NCBI RefSeq assembly: GCF_016652235.1
Contig: NZ_JAEPKU010000018.1
Span: 1 to 47,968 of the forward strand
Length of the DNA stretch: 47,968 nucleotides
Direction: 5' to 3'
From: Dysgonomonas sp. Marseille-P4677
GTDB taxonomy: Bacteria; Bacteroidota; Bacteroidia; Bacteroidales; Dysgonomonadaceae
The first letter of the stretch is position 1. Every line of letters begins with the position of its first letter. Position numbers and translations under genes: made by a program. Of this stretch, positions 27,194 to 35,092 are shown piece by piece. Under the pieces are notes generated by a model that was not told the origin of the DNA, did not search any database, and saw only the letters and a list, made by a program, of their open reading frames with translations.

Positions 27194-28108
27194 ATGAAAA
27201 CAAGATATGAGCAAATAGTTGATGTTGAAAAGATTGCATCGTTTAATAATAGAGTAGATATCGCTGAAGTTATTTCTTTAGCGAAGGAAGAGAGAATGGC
27301 CCCTATATCGCAGGACAATAAACAAATTCTACTCTTGGCTATCGATGTTCAGAACGACTTTATGGAGAATATTGGTAGTTTATCAGTGCAAGGCTCTAAA
27401 GGAGATGTCGAACGTCTTACAAGTTGGATTTATAACAATACGAAAAGTCTAACCCAGATTATATGTAGTCTGGATTCACATTCTATTACTCAGATATTTC
27501 ATGCAAACTGGTGGGTGGATAATAAGAGTAATAATCCTCCGCCATTCACAATCATTACCTATCAGGATGTTATTAATGGCAAATGGCAAGCTGCTAATGG
27601 AGAAAAAGACCGCTCGTTAGAATACCTTAAGAATTTGGAATTAACAAGTAAAAAACAACTTTGTATATGGCCTTATCATTGCTTGGAGGGAACAAATGGA
27701 GCGAAACTGGAAAATGAATTTACCAAAATGCTGTATTTCCACTCTGCGGCTCGTAGCAGCACTCCCATCTTTATCTACAAAGGACAAAATCCATATACGG
27801 AGATGTATGGGATAGTAAAAGCAGAATATGATCCTGAAAATTATGTAAATCAATTAGTTCTGGATGCTGTAGAAGAATATGATGAGATATACATTGCCGG
27901 AGAAGCTTCAAGCCATTGTGTGCTGGCATCAACAGTTCAGATCCTTGAATATTTCTCGGATCGTAAAGATATAATTACCCGTATCACTCTGTTAGAAGAT
28001 TGTATGTCTCCTATAGTAGGCTTTGAGGAATCAACCCGGCTACAATACCTAGAGTTGAAAGAAAGATATGGTATTCAGATTAAAAAGACAGTCGATGTAA
28101 TATTATAA
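27194..28108 (+). CDS. Nicotinamidase-like cysteine hydrolase, 304 aa
   Basis: Isochorismatase-fold hydrolase. Visible catalytic and metal residues: Asp in LLLAIDVQNDFME (about residue 53), a metal-binding Asp-x-His in CSLDSHSITQIFHANWW, WPYHCLEGTNGAKLE (matching the WP-HC--GT-GA nicotinamidase block), a Lys in IFIYKGQNPY, and the nucleophile Cys in GEASSHCVLAS. At 304 aa it is longer than classical PncA (about 210 aa), because of an N-terminal extension and a longer middle. Likely role: deamidation of nicotinamide to nicotinate in NAD salvage, supported by the nadE remnant upstream and the NrtR-like gene 6 bp downstream. A different amide substrate cannot be excluded. Confidence 0.8.
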   Translation: MKTRYEQIVDVEKIASFNNRVDIAEVISLAKEERMAPISQDNKQILLLAIDVQNDFMENIGSLSVQGSKGDVERLTSWIYNNTKSLTQIICSLDSHSITQIFHANWWVDNKSNNPPPFTIITYQDVINGKWQAANGEKDRSLEYLKNLELTSKKQLCIWPYHCLEGTNGAKLENEFTKMLYFHSAARSSTPIFIYKGQNPYTEMYGIVKAEYDPENYVNQLVLDAVEEYDEIYIAGEASSHCVLASTVQILEYFSDRKDIITRITLLEDCMSPIVGFEESTRLQYLELKERYGIQIKKTVDVIL

Positions 28109-28114
28109 CTAACG

Positions 28115-28822
28115 ATGGATAAGTCTAACGAATATACATATAAATATCCGCGTCCGGCAATTACAGTCGATTGTGTGATATTTGGATTTGATAAAGACCA
28201 GCTTCAACTTAAAGTATTATTGACAAAACGTGCCATTAATCCTTATATAGGTATGTGGCCCTTCCCCGGTGGTTTTATCAATATCGATGAAACATCAGAT
28301 GAATGCGCCCGACGAAAGTTGAAAGAAGAAGCAGGGCTGGAATCCATATTTTTGGAACAGTTATACACTTTTTCAAAAATTGAAAGAGACCCGAGAGAAC
28401 GTATTATAAGTATAGCATACTATGCATTGGTTAGATCTACGGATTATATCCTTAATATCGGACTGAATATCGAAGATGTACAATGGTTCTCTCTTGATGA
28501 AATACCACTATTAGCTTTCGACCACCAAGAAATACTAGATGTAGCAGTAGAACGCCTTAAAGGAAAAATCCGATATCAGCCGATAGGTTTTGAATTATTA
28601 CCGGAGAAATTTACATTGCCGGACCTACATCGATTATACGAAACCATACTGCAAAGAGATATAGACCGGGGCAATTTTAGAAAAAAGATACTAAGTATGA
28701 ACTTGTTAATAGATCATAGTGACAAACAAAAGAATCGACCTTCGCGAGGAGCTAAAATTTACAGTTTTGATAAGAACCGATACGAAAGCCTTACTAAGTC
28801 GGGATTCTATTTTGAGATATAA
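28115..28822 (+). CDS. nrtR: NrtR-like Nudix-domain transcriptional regulator, 235 aa
   Basis: The N-terminal Nudix domain (about 8-145) carries the box GFINIDETSDECARRK... with EEAGL; the canonical RE-UxEE reads RK-LKEE, so one catalytic Glu is replaced by Lys. The C-terminal winged-helix part is about 150-230 (TLPDLHRLYETILQRDIDRG, FRKKI). This is the layout of NrtR, a repressor of NAD genes that senses ADP-ribose with a catalytically weakened Nudix domain. It probably forms an operon with the nicotinamidase-like gene. A housekeeping Nudix hydrolase is less likely because of the C-terminal domain and the altered box. Confidence 0.82.
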   Translation: MDKSNEYTYKYPRPAITVDCVIFGFDKDQLQLKVLLTKRAINPYIGMWPFPGGFINIDETSDECARRKLKEEAGLESIFLEQLYTFSKIERDPRERIISIAYYALVRSTDYILNIGLNIEDVQWFSLDEIPLLAFDHQEILDVAVERLKGKIRYQPIGFELLPEKFTLPDLHRLYETILQRDIDRGNFRKKILSMNLLIDHSDKQKNRPSRGAKIYSFDKNRYESLTKSGFYFEI

Positions 28823-28877: not shown

Positions 28878-30188
28878 CTATTTGGCCTTAATATTCATTA
28901 TTGGCCTGATTGAATCTATAATTGTTGCCGTACCTTTTATAGCTACCATTATCAAATTCTTATCCTTATAAGCCATTGGCGATTCGTCAAGAGTCGATTG
29001 ACAAACTGAAGACGAATAAATACCCTCCATTTCTTTTGTAAATTCTTCCATATCCAAAGTCTTTAAAGCTTTGTTTCGAGCCAGTACACGCCCTGCACCA
29101 TGAGGAGCCGAACAGTTCCAGTCAGCATTGCTTTTTCCCTCACAGATAAGTATTCCGTCACGCATATTAAATGGGATTACCATTCTTTCTCCTTTATAAG
29201 AACGGATTGCTCCTTTTCTGATAATCCAGTCGGCGGTATCTATAAAGTTGTGCATAGAATATACAGAATCAACAGAATAATAATCTTCTCCTAAATCTTT
29301 GAATATAGCTTTCGACATTGCTTTATGATTGAATTGTGCATAAGTCTGGGCTATAACCATATCTACAAGATAATTATACATATCATCACCTTCGAGCATA
29401 TACTCCTTTTTATCCACCTTATATTTTTTTGCCAGCTCTTCCAGTTTTTGTGGTATATCAGATGTTGGTTGGGTATTTTTAGTTATTTGTTTAAATTCAT
29501 CGAAATATTCCTGAGTCAAACCTCTTTGCGACAACATCTTTTTAGCATGATAGTTACAAACTTTCAGTCCGAGATTTCGCGATCCGGAATGAATAGTCAG
29601 ATAATGCGAACCATCCTTTGCAGACTCTCCTATTTCAATAAAATGGTTTCCTCCGCCTAAAGTTCCAACTGAGTAATAAAATGTATCCTCATTGATTCCA
29701 AGCTTTTTCGCTAATCGGCTGATATATTCCCTATCGACTGTTTCCAATACTTTCTCTTCATCAAAACGCTTCGCCCATTCTTGTTGAAATGATTGAAGAT
29801 TCAGATTTACAGCTTCAATGTATGGGTCTACCCACCAATTATCGTAGGTCTTTTCTTTTCGAATATTCATCCCCATTGGTACAGAACGTCTGATTGCCAG
29901 ATCCAAAGTCGGTAAACGGTCTGCTTCAATACGCTTGTTTAACTTATGAGTTGTAACGGAACAACCGATATCAACGCCAATATAATTTGGATTTATCATT
30001 TTAGTCATTGGCATAGTAAATCCAATAACGATTCCTTTACCTACATGTGTATCGGGCATAATACGGACTTGCACTCCTTCAGATATTTCGTTGTTCAGTA
30101 TATTCTGTACCAGCTCAATAGCTTCTGTTTCCACATCGTCGATGAAGATTTTACAATCTTGGTTATATTTTCCTTTTAATTCTATCAT
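28878..30188 (-). CDS. rtcB: RtcB RNA ligase, 436 aa
   Basis: GTP-dependent ligase that joins 2',3'-cyclic phosphate or 3'-phosphate ends to 5'-OH ends, in tRNA splicing or RNA repair. Family signatures: NPNYIGVDIGCSV (metal-binding Asp and Cys), GTLGGGNHFIEIG, HSGSRNLGLKVCNYH, and the guanylated His in NCSAPHGAGRVLARNKA. Length fits the short RtcB family. It has no RtcA partner in this window. Its start codon is only 22 bp from the last element of the Y-RNA-like array, so both are probably on one transcript driven from near 30920. Linkage of rtcB with Ro60/Y RNA genes is known in Salmonella-type rsr-yrl-rtcBA loci. Confidence 0.96.
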   Translation of the reverse strand: MIELKGKYNQDCKIFIDDVETEAIELVQNILNNEISEGVQVRIMPDTHVGKGIVIGFTMPMTKMINPNYIGVDIGCSVTTHKLNKRIEADRLPTLDLAIRRSVPMGMNIRKEKTYDNWWVDPYIEAVNLNLQSFQQEWAKRFDEEKVLETVDREYISRLAKKLGINEDTFYYSVGTLGGGNHFIEIGESAKDGSHYLTIHSGSRNLGLKVCNYHAKKMLSQRGLTQEYFDEFKQITKNTQPTSDIPQKLEELAKKYKVDKKEYMLEGDDMYNYLVDMVIAQTYAQFNHKAMSKAIFKDLGEDYYSVDSVYSMHNFIDTADWIIRKGAIRSYKGERMVIPFNMRDGILICEGKSNADWNCSAPHGAGRVLARNKALKTLDMEEFTKEMEGIYSSSVCQSTLDESPMAYKDKNLIMVAIKGTATIIDSIRPIMNIKAK

Positions 30189-30210
30189 ACTCGTATATTT
30201 TCTAATAAAA

Positions 30211-30339
30211 AGTCAGGGTAATAAGTCGAAAAGGCCTTACATTCCGGTGTTTTACTCTCAACTACTAGCTTTCGCATGGCAGGAATTGCACCTGCGTCGC
30301 CGGATCACACGAAGAACTCCTTTTCTACGACACCTGACT
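30211..30339 (-). ncRNA. Y-RNA-like element R7 (last before rtcB)
   Basis: RNA read on minus from 30339 to 30211. The outer stem AGUCAGG/CCUGACU (30333-30339 with 30211-30217) is perfect. The internal loop is UGUCGUA (30326-30332) against GACUUAUUAC (30218-30227). The inner stem is GAAAAGG/CCUUUUC (30319-30325 with 30228-30234). The apical domain carries the conserved CUUCG, a closing helix UCCGG/CCGGA (30300-30304 with 30243-30247), a T-arm GCAGG-UGCAAUU-CCUGC (30279-30295) and a GAAA-capped GC hairpin at 30268-30275 in the acceptor position. It then has a shortened D-region. T-arm before acceptor is circularly permuted tRNA order. Downstream UUUUUAUU could end the RNA, but rtcB follows after 22 bp. 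Confidence 0.78.
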
Positions 30340-30354
30340 AGATTTTTAATTTTA

Positions 30355-30444
30355 AAACGAAGCTATAAGCGGAGAAAGCTCGTGCAGGATTCGAACCTAC
30401 GTTGGCCACTTAAACGAAGTAACTTTCTTCTACGGCATTCGTTT
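30355..30444 (-). ncRNA. Y-RNA-like element R6, T-arm-only module
   Basis: The shortest member of the array, 90 nt. Outer stem AAACGAA/UUCGUUU (30438-30444 with 30355-30361). Internal loop UGCCGUA (30431-30437) against GCUUAUAGC (30362-30370). Inner stem GAAGAAAG/CUUUCUCC (30423-30430 with 30371-30378, one A-C mismatch). The apical part has UUACUUCG, a helix UUCGU/ACGAG and a canonical T-arm GUAGG-UUCGAAU-CCUGC (30384-30400). Acceptor and D-arm equivalents are missing, so this copy keeps only the T-arm of the tRNA mimic. Confidence 0.78.
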
Positions 30445-30452
30445 ACAGGAAG

Positions 30453-30588
30453 AACAGAAGTAACAAACGAAAAGAGAAACGGGGCTTGACATTGCCGGAG
30501 TCGAACCGGATAGCCTTGTCGGTTTTACGACTTCGCTATTCCTCCCCTAAAGTGAGTCGAAGTAACTCTTTTCTACGACATTCTGTTT
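30453..30588 (-). ncRNA. Y-RNA-like element R5, T-arm plus long hairpin
   Basis: Outer stem AACAGAA/UUCUGUU (30581-30587 with 30453-30459). Internal loop UGUCGUA (30574-30580) against GUUUGUUAC (30460-30468). Inner stem GAAAAGAG/CUCUUUUC (30566-30573 with 30469-30476). The apical domain is a three-way junction: closing helix GGGG/CCCC (30544-30547 with 30481-30484), an extended hairpin AUAGC-GAA-GUCG...CGAC-AAG-GCUAU (30510-30539), and a T-arm CCGG-UUCGACU-CCGG (30495-30509). Here the order along the RNA is that of a normal tRNA, not permuted, unlike R3, R4 and R7. The outer stem differs from its neighbours on both strands, which supports pairing. Confidence 0.78.
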
Positions 30589-30598
30589 ATATCTCAAA

Positions 30599-30717
30599 AA
30601 CAAGGTAACAGACAATAAGAATTTATTTTGAGCTACATCCTTTCGAATGGAGGGATTTGAACCCACAACCAAGTAACACCTGCTCTACCGAAGTAACTCT
30701 TATTTACGACACTTATT
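30599..30717 (-). ncRNA. Y-RNA-like element R4, circularly permuted tRNA-like body
   Basis: Outer stem AAUAAG/CUUGUU (30712-30717 with 30599-30604). Internal loop UGUCGUA (30705-30711) against GUCUGUUAC (30605-30613). Inner stem AAUAAGAG/UUCUUAUU (30697-30704 with 30614-30621); both strands differ from the GAAAAGAG/CUCUUUUC of R5, a clear compensatory set. Apical body in RNA order: D-stem 3' strand GAGC (30682-30685), a minimal AGGU-GUU-ACUU hairpin in the anticodon position, a T-arm (30650-30666, one U-U), an acceptor stem CAUUC/GGAUG closed by a GAAA tetraloop (30636-30649), UAGCUC with the D-stem 5' strand (30630-30633). The Y stem therefore leaves from the D-loop position. Confidence 0.82.
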
Positions 30718-30728
30718 ATATCTTAAAG

Positions 30729-30883
30729 AAAACAAGGCTACAGACGAAAAGAGACTATATTCCTGCTCTACCCACTGAGCTACACTCCCATACTTAATTT
30801 TCGTTTTGTAGGAGTGGCGGGAGTCGAACCCGCGACCCGGGCATTAGAAGTGCGAAGTAACTCTCTTCTACGGCACTTGTTTT
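30729..30883 (-). ncRNA. Y-RNA-like element R3, permuted tRNA mimic, first of the main array
   Basis: The longest member, 155 nt. Outer stem AAAACAAG/CUUGUUUU (30876-30883 with 30729-30736). Internal loop UGCCGUA (30869-30875) against GUCUGUAGC (30737-30745). Inner stem GAAGAGAG/CUCUUUUC (30861-30868 with 30746-30753). Apical body in RNA order: GCA-CUUCUAA-UGC (30841-30853), which looks like a remnant of an Arg(UCU) anticodon arm; T-arm GCGGG-UUCGACU-CCCGC (30817-30833); acceptor CACUCC/GGAGUG (30811-30816 with 30783-30788) joined by a 22-nt loop; UA; D-arm GCUC-AGUGGGUA-GAGC (30765-30780). The 3' half of a tRNA thus precedes its 5' half. A promoter-like TAACTTTG and a palindrome lie upstream. 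Confidence 0.83.
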
Positions 30884-30919
30884 ATGCTATTATATCAATG
30901 ACCTCTTTCTTTAATAATA

Positions 30920-30927
30920 CAAAGTTA
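30920..30927 (-). promoter_or_regulatory. Promoter -7 element for the R3-R7/rtcB transcript
   Basis: TAACTTTG on the minus strand matches the Bacteroidota TAnnTTTG consensus. Transcription would start near 30910, about 30 nt before the R3 stem. It is placed 10 bp past the palindrome 30938-30954. Confidence 0.55.
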
Positions 30928-30935
30928 GAACAGCA

Positions 30936-30956
30936 GTACGCAGTCTTTTTGCGTGG
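30936..30956. promoter_or_regulatory. Palindromic operator-like site A, before the Y-RNA array
   Basis: ACGCA-N7-TGCGT at 30938-30954 matches 16 of 17 bases of the site before the TROVE gene (33539-33555). Both lie at the same distance, within one base, from a -7-like element. It overlaps the expected -33 region, so a bound protein could repress or activate. The divergent WYL regulator is the candidate; that assignment is inference. Confidence 0.65.
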
Positions 30957-30957
30957 A

Positions 30958-31605
30958 TTAATTTATTTTTAAAAATTCTATTATTTTCTCTGTACAAATA
31001 GAACTACTATTGTACGCTATATTGTCTGAACCACAATTTGAGCATGCGTAATATTGTATATTTCTGAATCGTTTCTTCTTTAAAACAGGTTCTTGTAAAG
31101 ATGAGCACTTCTTGCAATAGATATAATTTTTTACTTTTTCATATATCCCCTTTCTCTCTGCTTCATAAAAAATAAAGAACTCATTTTTTATTAATTCATC
31201 AATTTTATCTGTACTCAATTCTGGAAAATAATAAGGTGTACCCCCATGTTCAATAGAATATATATCATCAGAAATATATATAAACTCAATATATTTATTA
31301 AGATAATCAAGATTAGCTATTTTTACCATATTGGCTAATCCTTCATCCGGAGTCATTCTACAATCAATGACATCCCTGACCGTTTTAAGAGCAAATATGT
31401 TAATCAATTTCTCATTATCTGTTTCTGGGACAACATCCAGTTCCGAAAGCACCTTTTCGAAATATTTCTTTAAGACAAGACTATCCTCACAATCTAAACC
31501 TGCTAATATATATAATGATTCAGTATTATAGTTATTTTCGAGCAACTTGATAGCACACTCAATATATCTTGTATTATTAAAACCATTTACTATTTCGTCG
31601 GCCAA
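30958..31605 (-). CDS. Zinc-ribbon protein of unknown function, 215 aa
   Basis: No family recognised. Mainly helical, acidic N-terminal part (FNNTRYIECAIKLLENN, YILAGLDCEDS), then a C-terminal Cys4 ribbon: YCKKCSSLQ at about 163-166 and YACSNCGSDN about 20 residues later. No signal or TM. The only plausible start is TTG at 31605, because an in-frame TAA lies 9 codons upstream and no ATG is available; the start may be another rare codon or the 5' end may be lost. It is wedged between R1/R2 and the main RNA array, on the same strand as the TROVE gene, and could be translated from the TROVE transcript. It could be an RNA-binding accessory factor or an unrelated insertion; the sequence does not decide. 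Confidence 0.6.
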   Translation of the reverse strand: MADEIVNGFNNTRYIECAIKLLENNYNTESLYILAGLDCEDSLVLKKYFEKVLSELDVVPETDNEKLINIFALKTVRDVIDCRMTPDEGLANMVKIANLDYLNKYIEFIYISDDIYSIEHGGTPYYFPELSTDKIDELIKNEFFIFYEAERKGIYEKVKNYIYCKKCSSLQEPVLKKKRFRNIQYYACSNCGSDNIAYNSSSICTEKIIEFLKIN

Positions 31606-31674
31606 CAGTAAATTAATTTCTTCTTATAGATCAATTTTCATCTCGATTTCTTTCTTTTTATACCTTTCAAATCT

Positions 31675-31752
31675 GCTCTATTCAGTTGAACTCAAACCCA
31701 CAACCAGAGCATGCTTAATACGAAGACCTATGTTTTTACGACATTGTTATAT
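31675..31752 (-). ncRNA. Degenerate or truncated Y-RNA-like element R2
   Basis: It keeps the 23-nt conserved 5' segment (31721-31743) with UGUCGUA and CUUCG, preceded by AUAUAACAA. An apical helix GCUCU/AGAGC (31706-31710 with 31675-31679) encloses GGUUG...CAACU around a GGGUUUGAGUU loop that resembles a decayed T-arm. I found no 3' partner for the outer or inner stem before the zinc-ribbon ORF. It is either a relic truncated at its 3' side or a different RNA. Confidence 0.4.
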
Positions 31753-31766
31753 TTTCAAAGATGTTA

Positions 31767-31821
31767 AAAAAAGGTGACAAAAGTTACATGTTTTATACTA
31801 TTTTTCACTGTCTCCTTTTTT
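31767..31821 (-). terminator. Long hairpin between R1 and R2, probable terminator
   Basis: On the minus strand AAAAAAGGAGACA pairs with UGUCACCUUUUUU (13 positions, one mismatch) around a 29-nt loop, ending in U7. It could terminate the TROVE-R1 transcript, or be another Y-like stem that lost the UGUCGUA motif. Confidence 0.5.
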
Positions 31822-31846
31822 CTTATATCCGCCCCTGCTTTTCAAT

Positions 31847-31948
31847 ATAGATAAATAAACTTTGCGAAGTTACAAACGCATAGAGTCTTTAGGAATTTAC
31901 AGTTCGAAGTATCTCTATACTACGACATCCGCAAAGTTTCTTATCTAT
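31847..31948 (-). ncRNA. Y-RNA-like element R1, directly after the TROVE stop codon
   Basis: The strongest stem in the set. Core outer stem AAACUUUGCGGA/UUCGCAAAGUUU (31928-31939 with 31857-31868) is 12 bp with one G-U, extended by about 8 further pairs to 31948/31847. Internal loop UGUCGUA (31921-31927) against GUUUGUAAC (31869-31877). Inner stem GUAUAGAG/CUCUAUGC (31913-31920 with 31878-31885) is fully paired with one G-U. The apex is a 27-nt loop (31886-31912) that keeps AUACUUCGAA but has no tRNA-like arms. Being joined to the TROVE gene it resembles a minimal Y RNA made from the 3' end of the TROVE mRNA. Confidence 0.8.
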
Positions 31949-33462
31949 CATAATTCTATTTTCCGTATCTCATCTAAAGCATCGTCTCCACGATCTATAG
32001 CCGCTATTATATCAAATACCTTATCTGACCAACCTGCTATCAGGCATACATCCTCACGGGTGATATCCAAAGGTGTGGTTCCGTATCCCGATAGGTCAAA
32101 CAAATATAGCTTGCTTTCCGGTGATATCTTTTTGTATTTGTCCCACAAATCAGCTATTTTTTTATCGTTACGATTATTCCACAGCTGACAATCGGTAAAC
32201 ATCATCACTTTATCTATTCGTTGGTTGCTCTTCAGCAAATCATTTATTACCAGATAACCATTGGTCGCATAGCCGACTTCGCCTTCACGACGATAGAAAG
32301 CATCCACATTGGACAATATACCCTTGGTTGGAACGTTTATCACTTTCCACTTATCTCCGAACATACCTGTTATAGCATTTTTACAACGAGATTTCAGCAA
32401 CATGGCAAGCATCAAACCTATGTCATATGACAATATTTTGCTCTTTGGTGATATAGCTTGCTGCATAGAACCCGATACATCGGCGGCTATCAATACTTTA
32501 GTATCAGCATCAAAGCCGGATATGTTTTCTGCCGAAATAGCAACAGCCTGCTCCAACGCATTCATAATGCGACCGGCATAAGCCGATTTTACTTTCGATA
32601 TTTCACGATAAGCCGCAAGGAATCGGAATGGCAACTGCTTCGAACGGCGCACTGCTTCTGCATTCGACAAAGTCTCACATACACTCATTATATGCTGTTG
32701 CGATACCTCGGCCTCCAATATGTTACGCAAGTTACGCATCAATGCCATATAACCTACTTTACGGCTATCTATCAGTTCTTCCCACTTCATGCGAAAAGCA
32801 ATTTCTTTTTCTTTATCAAAAGTAAACTTAGTTTGTCCCAATGACGAAAGTTCAGTTTCCCACGTGTATGGAGTTTCCAACTCATTGTTTATTATCTTAT
32901 TGAACAATACTTGTTGTGCCTTGTCTTTCGCTTTTGGATGTACTAGGAACAAAGCATCTCTAAGTTTTACTTCAGTATCGCGATTGTATTTTGCAAACTG
33001 GTATTCATCGAATTTGTTGAAAGCATCTTGTAAGCCTGACTGAAGTTGTTTTGACAATCGGTTCAGTTTTTTGGTATCCTTGCGTTGGTTAGCCAATTGG
33101 TAGTATGCAAGCAATTCAGTTATCTCATCGGCACGCTGTACGATACCCGATACCATTTTACATACAGTAGAGTCTCCTCTATGTACCTTTGCCAACTCTA
33201 CAGCCAATACCAAAGATATGGAACGCATATTCATCTTCTGACGGGTATATATTGCCAACTGAGCTACAAATACTGGATCACATTGAGCTATCAGTTTACG
33301 CAATGTCTCTACCCTTGTTTCTGCTTTTTCGTAAAACTTGTCACTCAACGAAGAGGTTACGGCAGCAGTATACAATTGCCATTCTGGCGACAAGCGATAT
33401 GCTGATTCACCTTCGTGATTCATTGCCTTGTTTTTTCCTTTTGTTGTAAAATTAAATTTCAT
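31948..33462 (-). CDS. rsr: TROVE-domain Ro60/Rsr ortholog, 504 aa
   Basis: Start set at ATG 33462, one codon after a GTG at 33465. Residues about 15-330 are the helical-repeat TROVE ring (AYRLSPEWQLYTAAVTSS, QLAIYTRQKMNMRSISLVLA, MALMRNLRNILEAEVSQ, PFRFLAAYREI); the C-terminal third is a von Willebrand A domain with an intact MIDAS, DVSGS (VLIAADVSGSMQQAIS) and MMFTDCQLWN. Ro60/Rsr rings bind Y RNAs on the outside and misfolded or 3'-ended RNAs in the central cavity, and in Deinococcus tether PNPase. Same strand as the Y-RNA-like elements and rtcB. Its promoter carries the palindrome at 33537-33557 and its leader a UGUCGUA copy at 33492-33498. Confidence 0.95.
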   Translation of the reverse strand: MKFNFTTKGKNKAMNHEGESAYRLSPEWQLYTAAVTSSLSDKFYEKAETRVETLRKLIAQCDPVFVAQLAIYTRQKMNMRSISLVLAVELAKVHRGDSTVCKMVSGIVQRADEITELLAYYQLANQRKDTKKLNRLSKQLQSGLQDAFNKFDEYQFAKYNRDTEVKLRDALFLVHPKAKDKAQQVLFNKIINNELETPYTWETELSSLGQTKFTFDKEKEIAFRMKWEELIDSRKVGYMALMRNLRNILEAEVSQQHIMSVCETLSNAEAVRRSKQLPFRFLAAYREISKVKSAYAGRIMNALEQAVAISAENISGFDADTKVLIAADVSGSMQQAISPKSKILSYDIGLMLAMLLKSRCKNAITGMFGDKWKVINVPTKGILSNVDAFYRREGEVGYATNGYLVINDLLKSNQRIDKVMMFTDCQLWNNRNDKKIADLWDKYKKISPESKLYLFDLSGYGTTPLDITREDVCLIAGWSDKVFDIIAAIDRGDDALDEIRKIEL

Positions 33463-33491
33463 CACTGTAATTTTTAATTGTTAAGGTCTTT

Positions 33492-33498
33492 TACGACA
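33492..33498 (-). promoter_or_regulatory. UGUCGUA copy in the TROVE mRNA leader
   Basis: The heptamer shared by all R elements (TACGACA on plus) lies about 30 nt before the TROVE start codon, after AAAGAG. No partner strand was found, so this is not a complete Y stem. It could let the protein bind its own leader, be a relic, or be chance. Confidence 0.35.
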
Positions 33499-33536: not shown

Positions 33537-33557
33537 TTACGCAATCTTTTTGCGTAA
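33537..33557. promoter_or_regulatory. Palindromic operator site B, TROVE/WYL divergent promoter region
   Basis: Perfect inverted repeat TTACGCAA-N5-TTGCGTAA. It lies between the TROVE gene and the divergent 33596/WYL pair, 39 bp from the plus-strand start codon, and is nearly identical to site A before the RNA array. A dimeric regulator bound here could control both directions. Confidence 0.7.
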
Positions 33558-33595: not shown

Positions 33596-34078
33596 ATGAA
33601 CTCTATAAAGGCTAAAATAGATAAAAGTGATTATCAAGAGGATTGGTTATATCCTAACTATTATATTGACAATTTTTGGCTTGATGAAAAACTGGATAAA
33701 TTATATCCAGACAATTTATATAAAGGATTAATTCCAACATTGCTCTACGGATTAATAAATCAAGAAGAAAAAATAGTGTGGGAAACAATTTTACCCAATA
33801 AAGGAGAGATTACAATATGTCCAATATTGATGTGTCCAGATGATTACGACTTTTCATGTACATTGATTGTAGCAGAAATTGAGAATCATGGATCTTTTAT
33901 TCAATGGAAGCAAATAGGTGTTGATAAACAAACTAAATGGTTCGATGATGAAATAAAATATGACATAGTTTGGTTCTCGAATTTTCAATCATTAAACTTT
34001 GAACTTGACGATTATCAGAATATGATACAACATTTTAGAAAGCATTATCAATTGGATAAATTAAAAGATAATATTTAG
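33596..34078 (+). CDS. Hypothetical protein, 160 aa, upstream of WYL regulator
   Basis: No family recognised. A small acidic, Trp/Tyr-rich soluble protein (YQEDWLYPNYYIDNFW, DIVWFSNFQSLNFELDDY) without signal or TM. The composition resembles polymorphic-toxin immunity proteins, but this is only a likeness. Its stop is 3 bp before the WYL start, so the two genes are almost certainly cotranscribed from the divergent region carrying operator site B. It may be a partner or modulator of the regulator or of the TROVE system. Confidence 0.7.
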   Translation: MNSIKAKIDKSDYQEDWLYPNYYIDNFWLDEKLDKLYPDNLYKGLIPTLLYGLINQEEKIVWETILPNKGEITICPILMCPDDYDFSCTLIVAEIENHGSFIQWKQIGVDKQTKWFDDEIKYDIVWFSNFQSLNFELDDYQNMIQHFRKHYQLDKLKDNI

Positions 34079-34081
34079 ACT

Positions 34082-35092
34082 ATGCCGGTAAACCGTAACG
34101 CCCTCATCCGCTATAAAACAATAGATACTTGCCTGCGCAACAAGTACAGACAGTGGACACTAGAGGATTTGATCGATGCCTGTTCCGATGCCCTTTATGA
34201 ATATGAAGGCATAGACAAAGGTATTAGCAAACGTACTGTGCAGATGGATATTCAGATGATGCGTAGCGAAAAGCTTGGATATAATGCTCCTATTGTAGTT
34301 TACGATAGTAAATATTACAAGTACGAAGATGAGGATTATAGTATCACTAATACACCGCTATCGGAGCAAGACCTAAAAACCATGTCGGAAGCGGTAGAAG
34401 TTCTTCGCCAGTTTAAAGGCTTTTCTTACTTTTCAGAGATGCAGGACATTGTCAGTCGTTTGGAAGACCATGTTACTTCTGCCAAACAAAAGACTATTCC
34501 TGTTATAGATTTCGAAAAGAATGAAAGTCTTAAAGGACTGAATTACTTAGATATTATCTACAATGCTATCGTCAATAAGCAGGTATTGAATATTAAATAT
34601 CGATCTTTTAAGGCTCGCTCGGCTAATACTTTTATATTTTACCCTTATTTACTGAAAGAATATCGTAATCGTTGGTTTGTATTTGGACGCCGAAAAGGGA
34701 GCTTAATCAATCTGGCATTAGATCGTATACATGATATTAAAATAGCCGAAAAGGAGAAATTTATCGAAAATGATCTTTTCGACCCTCAAACTTTCTTTAA
34801 TGATTTGGTTGGTGTAACAAAAAACATCGGTATGAAAGCCCAAACCGTTCGCTTCTCAGTAAATAAAGAAAATGCACCTTATGTGCAAACTAAGCCTTTT
34901 CATAAAAGTCAGAAAATTGTAGAAGAGTATAAAGATGGCTCCACAGTTTTTGAAATTCATGTTGTAATCAATCAGGAATTGCAGAGGGAGTTTCTCGGAT
35001 ATGCAGATACAATACGTATCCTTTCTCCTCAATCGCTCGTTGACTTCATGGCCTGGAAGTTTAGATTAGCTAAAGAATTATATATAGAATAA
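34082..35092 (+). CDS. WYL-domain transcriptional regulator, 336 aa
   Basis: N-terminal winged HTH about 1-90 (RTVQMDIQMMRSEKLGYNAPI is the recognition-helix/wing region), linker, WYL domain about 150-235 (NIKYRSFKARSANTFIFYPY, LLKEYRNRWFVFGRRKGS, IHDI) and a C-terminal WCX-like extension to 336. WYL proteins bind ligands, in several cases nucleic acids or nucleotides, and regulate phage defence, DNA damage or RNA-repair genes. Divergent from the TROVE gene. In Salmonella-type loci the rsr-yrl-rtcBA genes are controlled by RtcR with sigma54; here a WYL protein seems to take that place and to bind sites A and B. That role is inference. Confidence 0.92.
   Translation: MPVNRNALIRYKTIDTCLRNKYRQWTLEDLIDACSDALYEYEGIDKGISKRTVQMDIQMMRSEKLGYNAPIVVYDSKYYKYEDEDYSITNTPLSEQDLKTMSEAVEVLRQFKGFSYFSEMQDIVSRLEDHVTSAKQKTIPVIDFEKNESLKGLNYLDIIYNAIVNKQVLNIKYRSFKARSANTFIFYPYLLKEYRNRWFVFGRRKGSLINLALDRIHDIKIAEKEKFIENDLFDPQTFFNDLVGVTKNIGMKAQTVRFSVNKENAPYVQTKPFHKSQKIVEEYKDGSTVFEIHVVINQELQREFLGYADTIRILSPQSLVDFMAWKFRLAKELYIE

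Follow-up and report, generated by a model that had tools for sequence, protein, structure and literature searches.

A tandem set of probable Y RNA elements with a common basal module and differing tops between a Ro60-like gene and rtcB in Dysgonomonas

We analysed a 47,968-nucleotide (nt) stretch of Dysgonomonas sp. Marseille-P4677 (contig NZ_JAEPKU010000018.1 of assembly GCF_016652235.1, positions 1 to 47,968), hereafter the window, in which a row of short RNA elements lies between the gene of a Ro60/Rsr-like protein with a TROVE domain and rtcB, the gene of an RNA ligase. The elements are probably of a kind already known, the bacterial Y RNAs, and the array would be a variant of that kind. 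An original prediction, made from the sequence, had described them as Y-RNA-like, and this identity is supported by their position, a covarying basal stem, one match to the YrlA model, and the absence of such elements from genomes without TROVE (292 at the order level, 20 within the genus). The row is probably a tandem Y RNA gene set that belongs to the adjoining Ro60, in which the tops of the RNAs would choose the partners and a WYL-domain regulator would switch on the set jointly.

A repeat search of the window returned a single family, seven 23-nt copies starting at 30310, 30415, 30558, 30689, 30853, 31721 and 31905, exactly as predicted. The copies have equal length and not identical sequence (70–83% identity to the reference copy). 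The TROVE gene, rtcB and all copies lie on the minus strand, in agreement with the predicted common orientation; read in this direction, the copies share UGYCGUA and, after 11 variable letters, CUUCG. For six of the seven, a scan located a 3′ half, 53–133 nt past the copy start, that closes a 6-base-pair (bp) outer stem. The seventh, at 31721..31743, is a remnant of the 5′ core, for which the scan found no 3′ half and the covariance model R2 (see below) no match at an expectation value (E) of 0.001.

R2 recovers all six window elements on the minus strand, each at E ≤ 3.1e-10. Numbered from the TROVE side, they are element 1 at 31861..31935 (67.6 bits), a plain hairpin without a transfer RNA (tRNA)-like part; element 2 at 30729..30883 (68.4 bits), of class I, with a permuted tRNA-like top; element 3 at 30597..30719 (65.5 bits), of class VI, with a tRNA-like top opened in the D loop; element 4 at 30452..30588 (72.7 bits), of class II; element 5 at 30354..30445 (64.5 bits), of class VII, with a T arm only; and element 6 at 30210..30340 (52.1 bits), of class V. 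Element 1 lies 12 nt past the TROVE stop codon and element 6 ends 21 nt ahead of the rtcB start. Within the five-element part of the array, neighbours are 6–13 nt apart.

We aligned 27 elements from the window and four genus relatives, joining the 5′ 32 letters of each to its 3′ 28 letters. The resulting basal module comprises an 8-bp outer helix, a bulged U, pairs 10-52 and 11-51, an internal loop with CGUA on its 5′ side, and an 8-bp inner helix. In this alignment, 92.4% of cells are paired, 15 of 18 pairs show double-sided changes, and the covariation score is 0.616, as against 0.264 for shuffled and 0.10–0.21 for slid alignments. Pair 10-52 is always G-C; pair 11-51 is U-A in 17 elements, C-G in 8, U-G in one and mismatched in one. 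Because the outer stem served to choose the 3′ partners, its share of the covariation is favoured. By contrast, the inner helix, with double changes in 6 of its 8 pairs, and pair 11-51 played no part in that choice. A wider alignment, A3, of 128 Bacteroidota elements was 91.9% paired, with a covariation of 0.761 versus 0.257 when shuffled, its elements being fitted to the model. The original prediction had proposed a comparison of related loci; the pairings are kept there, with compensatory changes in both the genus and the Bacteroidota elements. These computations show that the six elements have one common basal module with differing tops, the shared fold plan that had been predicted for six of the copies. 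The module very probably serves as the Ro60 dock.

We then surveyed the Ro60 loci of other bacteria. From at least 462 TROVE relatives, the best 80 make up the named loci; going by their titles, we take 79 to be Bacteroidota lineages and one to be Limnohabitans. Model R1, built from the genus elements alone, gave 244 matches at E up to 5, in 88 loci; at E 1e-4 it gave 128 elements in 68 of 89 sources, 110 of them in 55 loci outside the genus. As R1 missed element 2 and misaligned element 3, we built R2 from A3, which consists of these 128 elements. At E ≤ 0.001, R2 identified 382 elements (74 + 127 + 181) in 86 sources, one of them a duplicate, and 255 of the 381 distinct elements were absent from its training set. 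Over 79 loci, a count that excludes four loci in pieces (L007, L008, L010 and L105; handles in L, G and C denote loci, genomes and contigs) and L025, which had no match, the median is five elements per locus and the maximum ten; at least two occur in 75 loci, at least three in 70 and at least five in 45. The sampled Ro60 loci of Bacteroidota usually carry several elements each, and the expanded repertoire that had been proposed for the window, with its six intact elements, is borne out. Among the 77 non-duplicate named loci, 76 contain at least one element. All 348 of their elements lie on the TROVE strand, 330 downstream of TROVE and 324 within 2 kilobases (kb) downstream. Gaps between neighbouring elements are 15 nt or less in 243 of 338 cases, which suggests a single transcript that is cut apart.

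The elements also follow TROVE in occurrence. TROVE is present in 5 of 25 genus genomes, and R1 matches at E ≤ 0.01 are confined to these five (next best E, 0.0296). Since R1 was made from the same five genomes, the informative part of this result is the 0 of 20 genomes without TROVE. An order-level scan of 295 genomes found TROVE in three and R2 matches (E 0.001) in the same three; the 292 genomes without TROVE yielded no R2 match at this threshold, in a scan that scored 12 candidates per genome under strict filters, as compared with 150 in the genus scan. In one of the three, G227, the match positions equal those of L027. Another, G092, is an independent third positive, with a TROVE protein that is 36% identical and one match at E 1e-6.

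The tops of the 381 elements, sorted by simple patterns, comprised a T arm only in 142, T then D in 100, plain in 90, other in 45, D only in 3 and D then T in 1, the 74-nt plain element at L007 6054 being wrongly labelled as T only. We scored tRNA likeness by alignment to doubled host tRNAs (39 tRNA genes from 30 of 39 matched loci), with plain letter shuffles as the null. Element 2 has the order T arm, closed acceptor, D arm, and its Y stem occupies the place of the anticodon arm. Against the doubled tRNA-Gly of its own genome it scored 21.5, in permuted order, versus a null maximum of 13.5. Class I, to which it belongs, is a cluster of 97 elements in 67 loci; the consensus of 52 of these sequences has a T stem of 5, an acceptor of 7 and a D stem of 4 pairs inside the Y stem, with double changes in 30 of 36 pairs and 95% pairing. 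Element 2 clearly has a tRNA-like domain with a YrlA-type circular permutation.

The other tops depart from this plan. The top of element 3 reads GGUAGAGC, T arm, acceptor with a GAAA loop, and UAGCUCA. The order in class VI is the 3′ half of the D arm, an anticodon-like stretch, the T arm, a closed acceptor and the 5′ half of the D arm, and its consensus (10 sequences) is 88% paired, with double changes in 24 of 33 pairs; cluster relatives of element 3 include L006 4142 and L027 11318. Its tRNA alignment scored 15.0 (null maximum, 13.5), and that of element 5, whose class VII has nine elements in nine loci, scored 14.0 (null maximum, 12.5). The case for tRNA mimicry is fair for these two. The top of element 4 has GGGGAGGAAUAG, a two-part arm, a T arm and CCCC. 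Class II has 40 elements, a single copy in each of 40 loci, and a consensus fold (38 sequences) with double changes in 20 of 36 pairs; the alignment of element 4 with tRNA scored 12.0, equal to the null maximum. Element 6, in a cluster of five that includes the window, has a T-arm-like stem with the loop UGCAAUU, and its tRNA similarity was not above the null. Element 1 clusters with plain elements in eight other loci. The prediction of a different apex on each RNA holds for the five long elements, the one next to TROVE being a plain hairpin, and that of tRNA mimicry is clear for element 2, fair for elements 3 and 5, not above the null for elements 4 and 6, and wrong for element 1.

A search with the Rfam YrlA model (RF02553), as the original prediction had suggested, matched element 2 at 38.5 bits (E 1.9e-6), under the gathering score of 69. 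A YrlA score of 40.2 bits was obtained in L006, L009 and L010, and no element in seven further loci reached the gathering score. As the window has no gathering-level Rfam match, Y RNA identity rests on the comparison described above. Rfam matches to transfer-messenger RNA and microRNA in the window were judged to be a T arm and chance, respectively, and ARAGORN recognised no tRNA gene in the window.

Outside the window, 10 of 77 loci have tRNA genes between or next to the elements, frequently at a distance of a few bases: nine such genes in L066 (11767-13073), and others in L037, L054, L058, L061, L071, L073, L074, L082 and L084. A Y-type element of about 210 nt with a large top occurs on the minus strand in L010 (14420-14630), L009 (761-973) and L008 (8517-8730), of the relatives G018, G012 and G015; G000 gave no match. 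The three are 88–93% alike and have a TAnnTTTG box 6–9 nt ahead of the outer stem. In G018 (L010), the first 18 letters of the top match G003 23S ribosomal RNA at 17 of 18 positions, which 5 of 300 shuffles equalled. We rejected ribosome mimicry for this element, other shared 7-mers being at the level of chance (66 versus a mean of 57.5; 59 of 300 shuffles had as many).

We also found a candidate control element. The palindrome ACGCA-N7-TGCGT occurs twice in the window and never in 100 shuffles. On the minus strand, one putative operator lies upstream of TROVE (33539..33555) and the other 54 nt ahead of element 2 (30938..30954), each followed by a TTTG box. At 30920..30927 on this strand, the sequence TAACTTTG reads as a Bacteroidetes-type promoter box, whose consensus is TAnnTTTG. 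Allowing at most one mismatch, ACGCAAAAAGAYTGCGT has three sites in the 4.73-megabase genome, at TROVE, at the array and at a locus encoding an SPFH protein. A relaxed pattern gave 19 sites in 8 of 25 genus members, and its reversed control none. Ten of the 19 were placed: five at TROVE, three at arrays, one at the SPFH locus and one at rtcB. The operator precedes TROVE in all five genus genomes with that gene. In G000, G014 and G018 it also lies 51–54 nt ahead of the element that opens the array, and in G004 (G004:C37:6228), a genome without TROVE, it stands about 50 nt ahead of an rtcB match. Further sites in genus members without TROVE are in G016:C11, G011:C15 and G011:C23, those of G016 and G011 C23 being near WYL copies. 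In 54 of 76 loci outside the genus, such a palindrome stands no more than 260 nt upstream of TROVE, versus 79 of 4000 random windows, a control that includes true sites.

The gene of a WYL/WCX-domain regulator (34082..35092, plus strand; PF13280, 47.2 bits; PF25583, 46.5 bits) is divergent from TROVE. It has an equivalent position in the relative L006, and 53 of 77 loci yielded a WYL relative. We infer that the WYL protein binds the palindromic operator. The leader of TROVE contains a further motif: UGUCGUA of the Y core recurs at 33492-33498 (minus strand), and GAGUGUCGU is kept there in all five genus members and also, among the leaders shown, in L014, L015, L016 and L021. This copy of the core may reflect self-regulation by Ro60.

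At the third operator site, on contig C234, the palindrome is followed by a tRNA-like row, genes for a 745-amino-acid (aa) protein and the SPFH protein, and an open reading frame (ORF) of 306 aa, which we take to be NAD-kinase-like (no Pfam match). This second array spans 2213-2780 of L127 (G000 contig C234), with genes up to 7201. A WYL copy on C234 is 93% identical to the window protein. The Rfam tRNA model scored 53.6 bits on C234:2565-2686; on the C234 array ARAGORN recognised no tRNA and R2 had no match, and the 9-kb stretch read at this locus has no TROVE gene. Inspected by eye, the array shows a core resembling GGUCAA...GG..UACUNC five times, flanked by D and T arms.

Several observations weigh against the proposed Ro60-associated Y RNA set. 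The single-sequence folding energies of the six elements are unremarkable (z -0.29 to -1.72), so that the case rests on comparison and not on energy. No tested element attains the Rfam YrlA gathering score, and three of the six tops (30210, 31861 and 30452) have no tRNA similarity above the null. The TROVE locus L025 has no R2 match. Seven elements of G018 are on the strand opposite TROVE, about 6 and 18 kb away, and an array of five in G015 and the match in G092 are each on a contig other than that of TROVE. The positives of the co-occurrence are partly built in, R1 having been made from five TROVE genomes and R2 fed by G000 and G227. Finally, rtcB turned up in 38 of the 77 loci, a set that includes loci truncated at contig ends.

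In our proposal, the row would be transcribed from the promoter behind the palindromic operator and then cut apart. Each Y RNA would bind the same Ro60 ring in turn, with the basal module as its dock, and the top would determine what meets the ring. Proteins that bind the elbow of tRNA may be recruited or kept away by the tRNA-like tops; these would be RtcB, tRNA-modifying enzymes or, as in Deinococcus, the exonuclease PNPase. The plain hairpin would be a gate only. The WYL regulator would switch on Ro60, the RNAs and RtcB jointly upon RNA damage, chiefly of tRNA. The original prediction had likewise suggested one Ro60 with a set of gates or adaptors; such a role, and binding to this Ro60, are predictions here too. 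We somewhat favour an adaptor role for the tops. According to PMC7790460, PMC8394870 and PMC8058203, Ro60 of Deinococcus is tethered to PNPase through a Y RNA, and DusA and TruB act on YrlA as a substrate.

Instead of being nuclease adaptors, the RNAs might act as decoys: bound to Ro60 and resembling tRNA, they would tie up toxins that cut tRNA or enzymes that bind it. Such a function would suit the diversity of the tRNA mimics, the presence of RtcB and, in 10 of 77 loci, the co-location of tRNA genes with the elements; the idea is raised for YrlA by Hughes et al. We nevertheless regard decoys as rather unlikely. Neither class I nor the T-arm-only class has an anticodon arm, which is what such toxins usually attack; the 90 plain hairpins among the 381 elements would serve no decoy role; and, in published work on Salmonella, fragments of YrlA were not detected when tRNAs were cut.

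Alternatively, the elements could act in cis, as hairpins of the rtcB leader and TROVE tail that steer processing, stability or attenuation, and not as separate RNAs. Their close spacing between two same-strand genes, the last of them 21 nt from rtcB, would be consistent with this, as would the reappearance of a piece of the core, GAGUGUCGU, in the leader of TROVE in all five genus members. This explanation is improbable given the arrays of G015 and G018, on another contig and on the opposite strand, respectively; the many loci in which rtcB was not found; the TAnnTTTG box before the outer stem in the three 210-nt relatives; and the lack of an obvious cis role for tRNA-like tops. That the elements are functionless debris of duplicated tRNA-derived repeats is hardly credible: although one of the seven copies has decayed, single-element folding energies are ordinary and TROVE occurs in only 5 of 25 genus members, compensatory changes are seen within and between species, tops persist from locus to locus (class II stands once in each of 40) and genomes without TROVE lack the elements.

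Extending the proposal of partner-choosing tops, we offer a broader and distinctly tentative idea. In Bacteroidota, a single Ro60 ring may work with tRNA mimics that can be exchanged for one another; the docking stem would enter the tRNA body at differing points (the place of the anticodon arm, the D loop or the acceptor end) and so give permuted surfaces. These would form a WYL-controlled RNA-damage regulon together with RtcB, the SPFH protein and its tRNA-like array and, in certain species, additional tRNA genes, and would sort damaged or misfolded tRNAs by matching them to a series of reference forms. For bacterial Y RNAs, function has been established in very few species. With about five Y RNAs per sampled locus, whose tops show different parts of tRNA, these loci provide a natural series for studying top function, and the basal consensus is a concrete basis for testing Ro60 binding. 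A covariance model of the R2 type serves where Rfam falls short, and the operator links Ro60, the Y RNAs and the second tRNA-like array into one candidate regulon.

The Ro60/Rsr-like protein (31948..33465, minus strand; TROVE plus a putative vWA domain) exceeds the Pfam cut-off for TROVE (PF05731, 116.8 versus 23 bits) and falls just under that for vWA_Ro60 (27.5 versus 27.7 bits). Its DVSGS motif, invariant across the five sequences compared, is presumably the MIDAS metal-binding motif, and its relatives in the PDB are 9l5y, 9kop, 1yvp and 2nvo. The RtcB ligase gene (28878..30188, minus strand) matches PF01139 at 197.1 bits (cut-off 27). The ORF list includes a small plus-strand ORF of 160 aa directly 5′ of the WYL gene (33596..34078), of which an 84% identical copy adjoins the second WYL gene on C234, and a minus-strand ORF of 215 aa with a TTG start (30958..31605), between elements 1 and 2 and outside the array, for which no Pfam family was above cut-off. 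The gap between TROVE and the array differs in content, with this 215-aa ORF here and a DUF4172-Fic protein in L006 (4687-5841), as if it were a place that accepts cargo genes. A gene for an NrtR/NUDIX-type regulator and a 304-aa ORF, at 27194-28822, are convergent with rtcB; we take the latter to resemble a nicotinamidase-type hydrolase (no Pfam match). A phage origin was considered and rejected, as viral contigs, scanned with the TROVE alignment, yielded no relative.

The literature within our reach on bacterial Y RNAs, Ro60, YrlA and RtcB, which did not extend to key primary papers, contained no account of such arrays. A 2014 study by Chen is reported to have placed probable Y RNAs close to Ro60 in over 250 species, each of them with one or more RNAs that resemble tRNA; because of this survey, we consider the array a variant and not a new kind. 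Like the YrlA-type Y RNAs (RF02553; yrlA and yrlB of Salmonella), the elements lie beside Ro60/Rsr and often rtcB, form a basal stem from both ends and, in class I, have D, T and acceptor arms. Unlike them, they score below the Rfam gathering threshold where tested, occur in larger sets (the median of five over 79 loci) and include a D-loop-opened permutation, T-arm-only tops and tops that are not tRNA-like. An RNA-repair module with SPFH/Band-7 proteins and a tRNA-like RNA is said to have been described by Burroughs and Aravind in 2016. It resembles the third operator site here, at an SPFH gene and a tRNA-like array; that array differs from the Y RNA elements in its RNA core (no R2 match) and in having no TROVE gene in the 9 kb read.

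PMC4726728 describes the vertebrate Ro site as a helix of seven pairs that has a single bulged C, with three bulged bases across from it. Both this site and the basal module combine an outer helix with a lone bulged pyrimidine, on the 5′ strand, and unpaired bases on the opposite one, whereas the tops differ and the bulge is U here and C there; no sequence homology is claimed. According to the three papers cited above for Deinococcus, Salmonella has an rsr-yrlBA-rtcBA operon that is switched on upon tRNA damage. The Salmonella operon (PMC7790460) carries RtcR, where the window has a WYL gene and a palindromic operator (no search for RtcR or RtcA was made here). In both, Ro60, Y RNAs and RtcB stand together, with more RNAs in the Dysgonomonas array.

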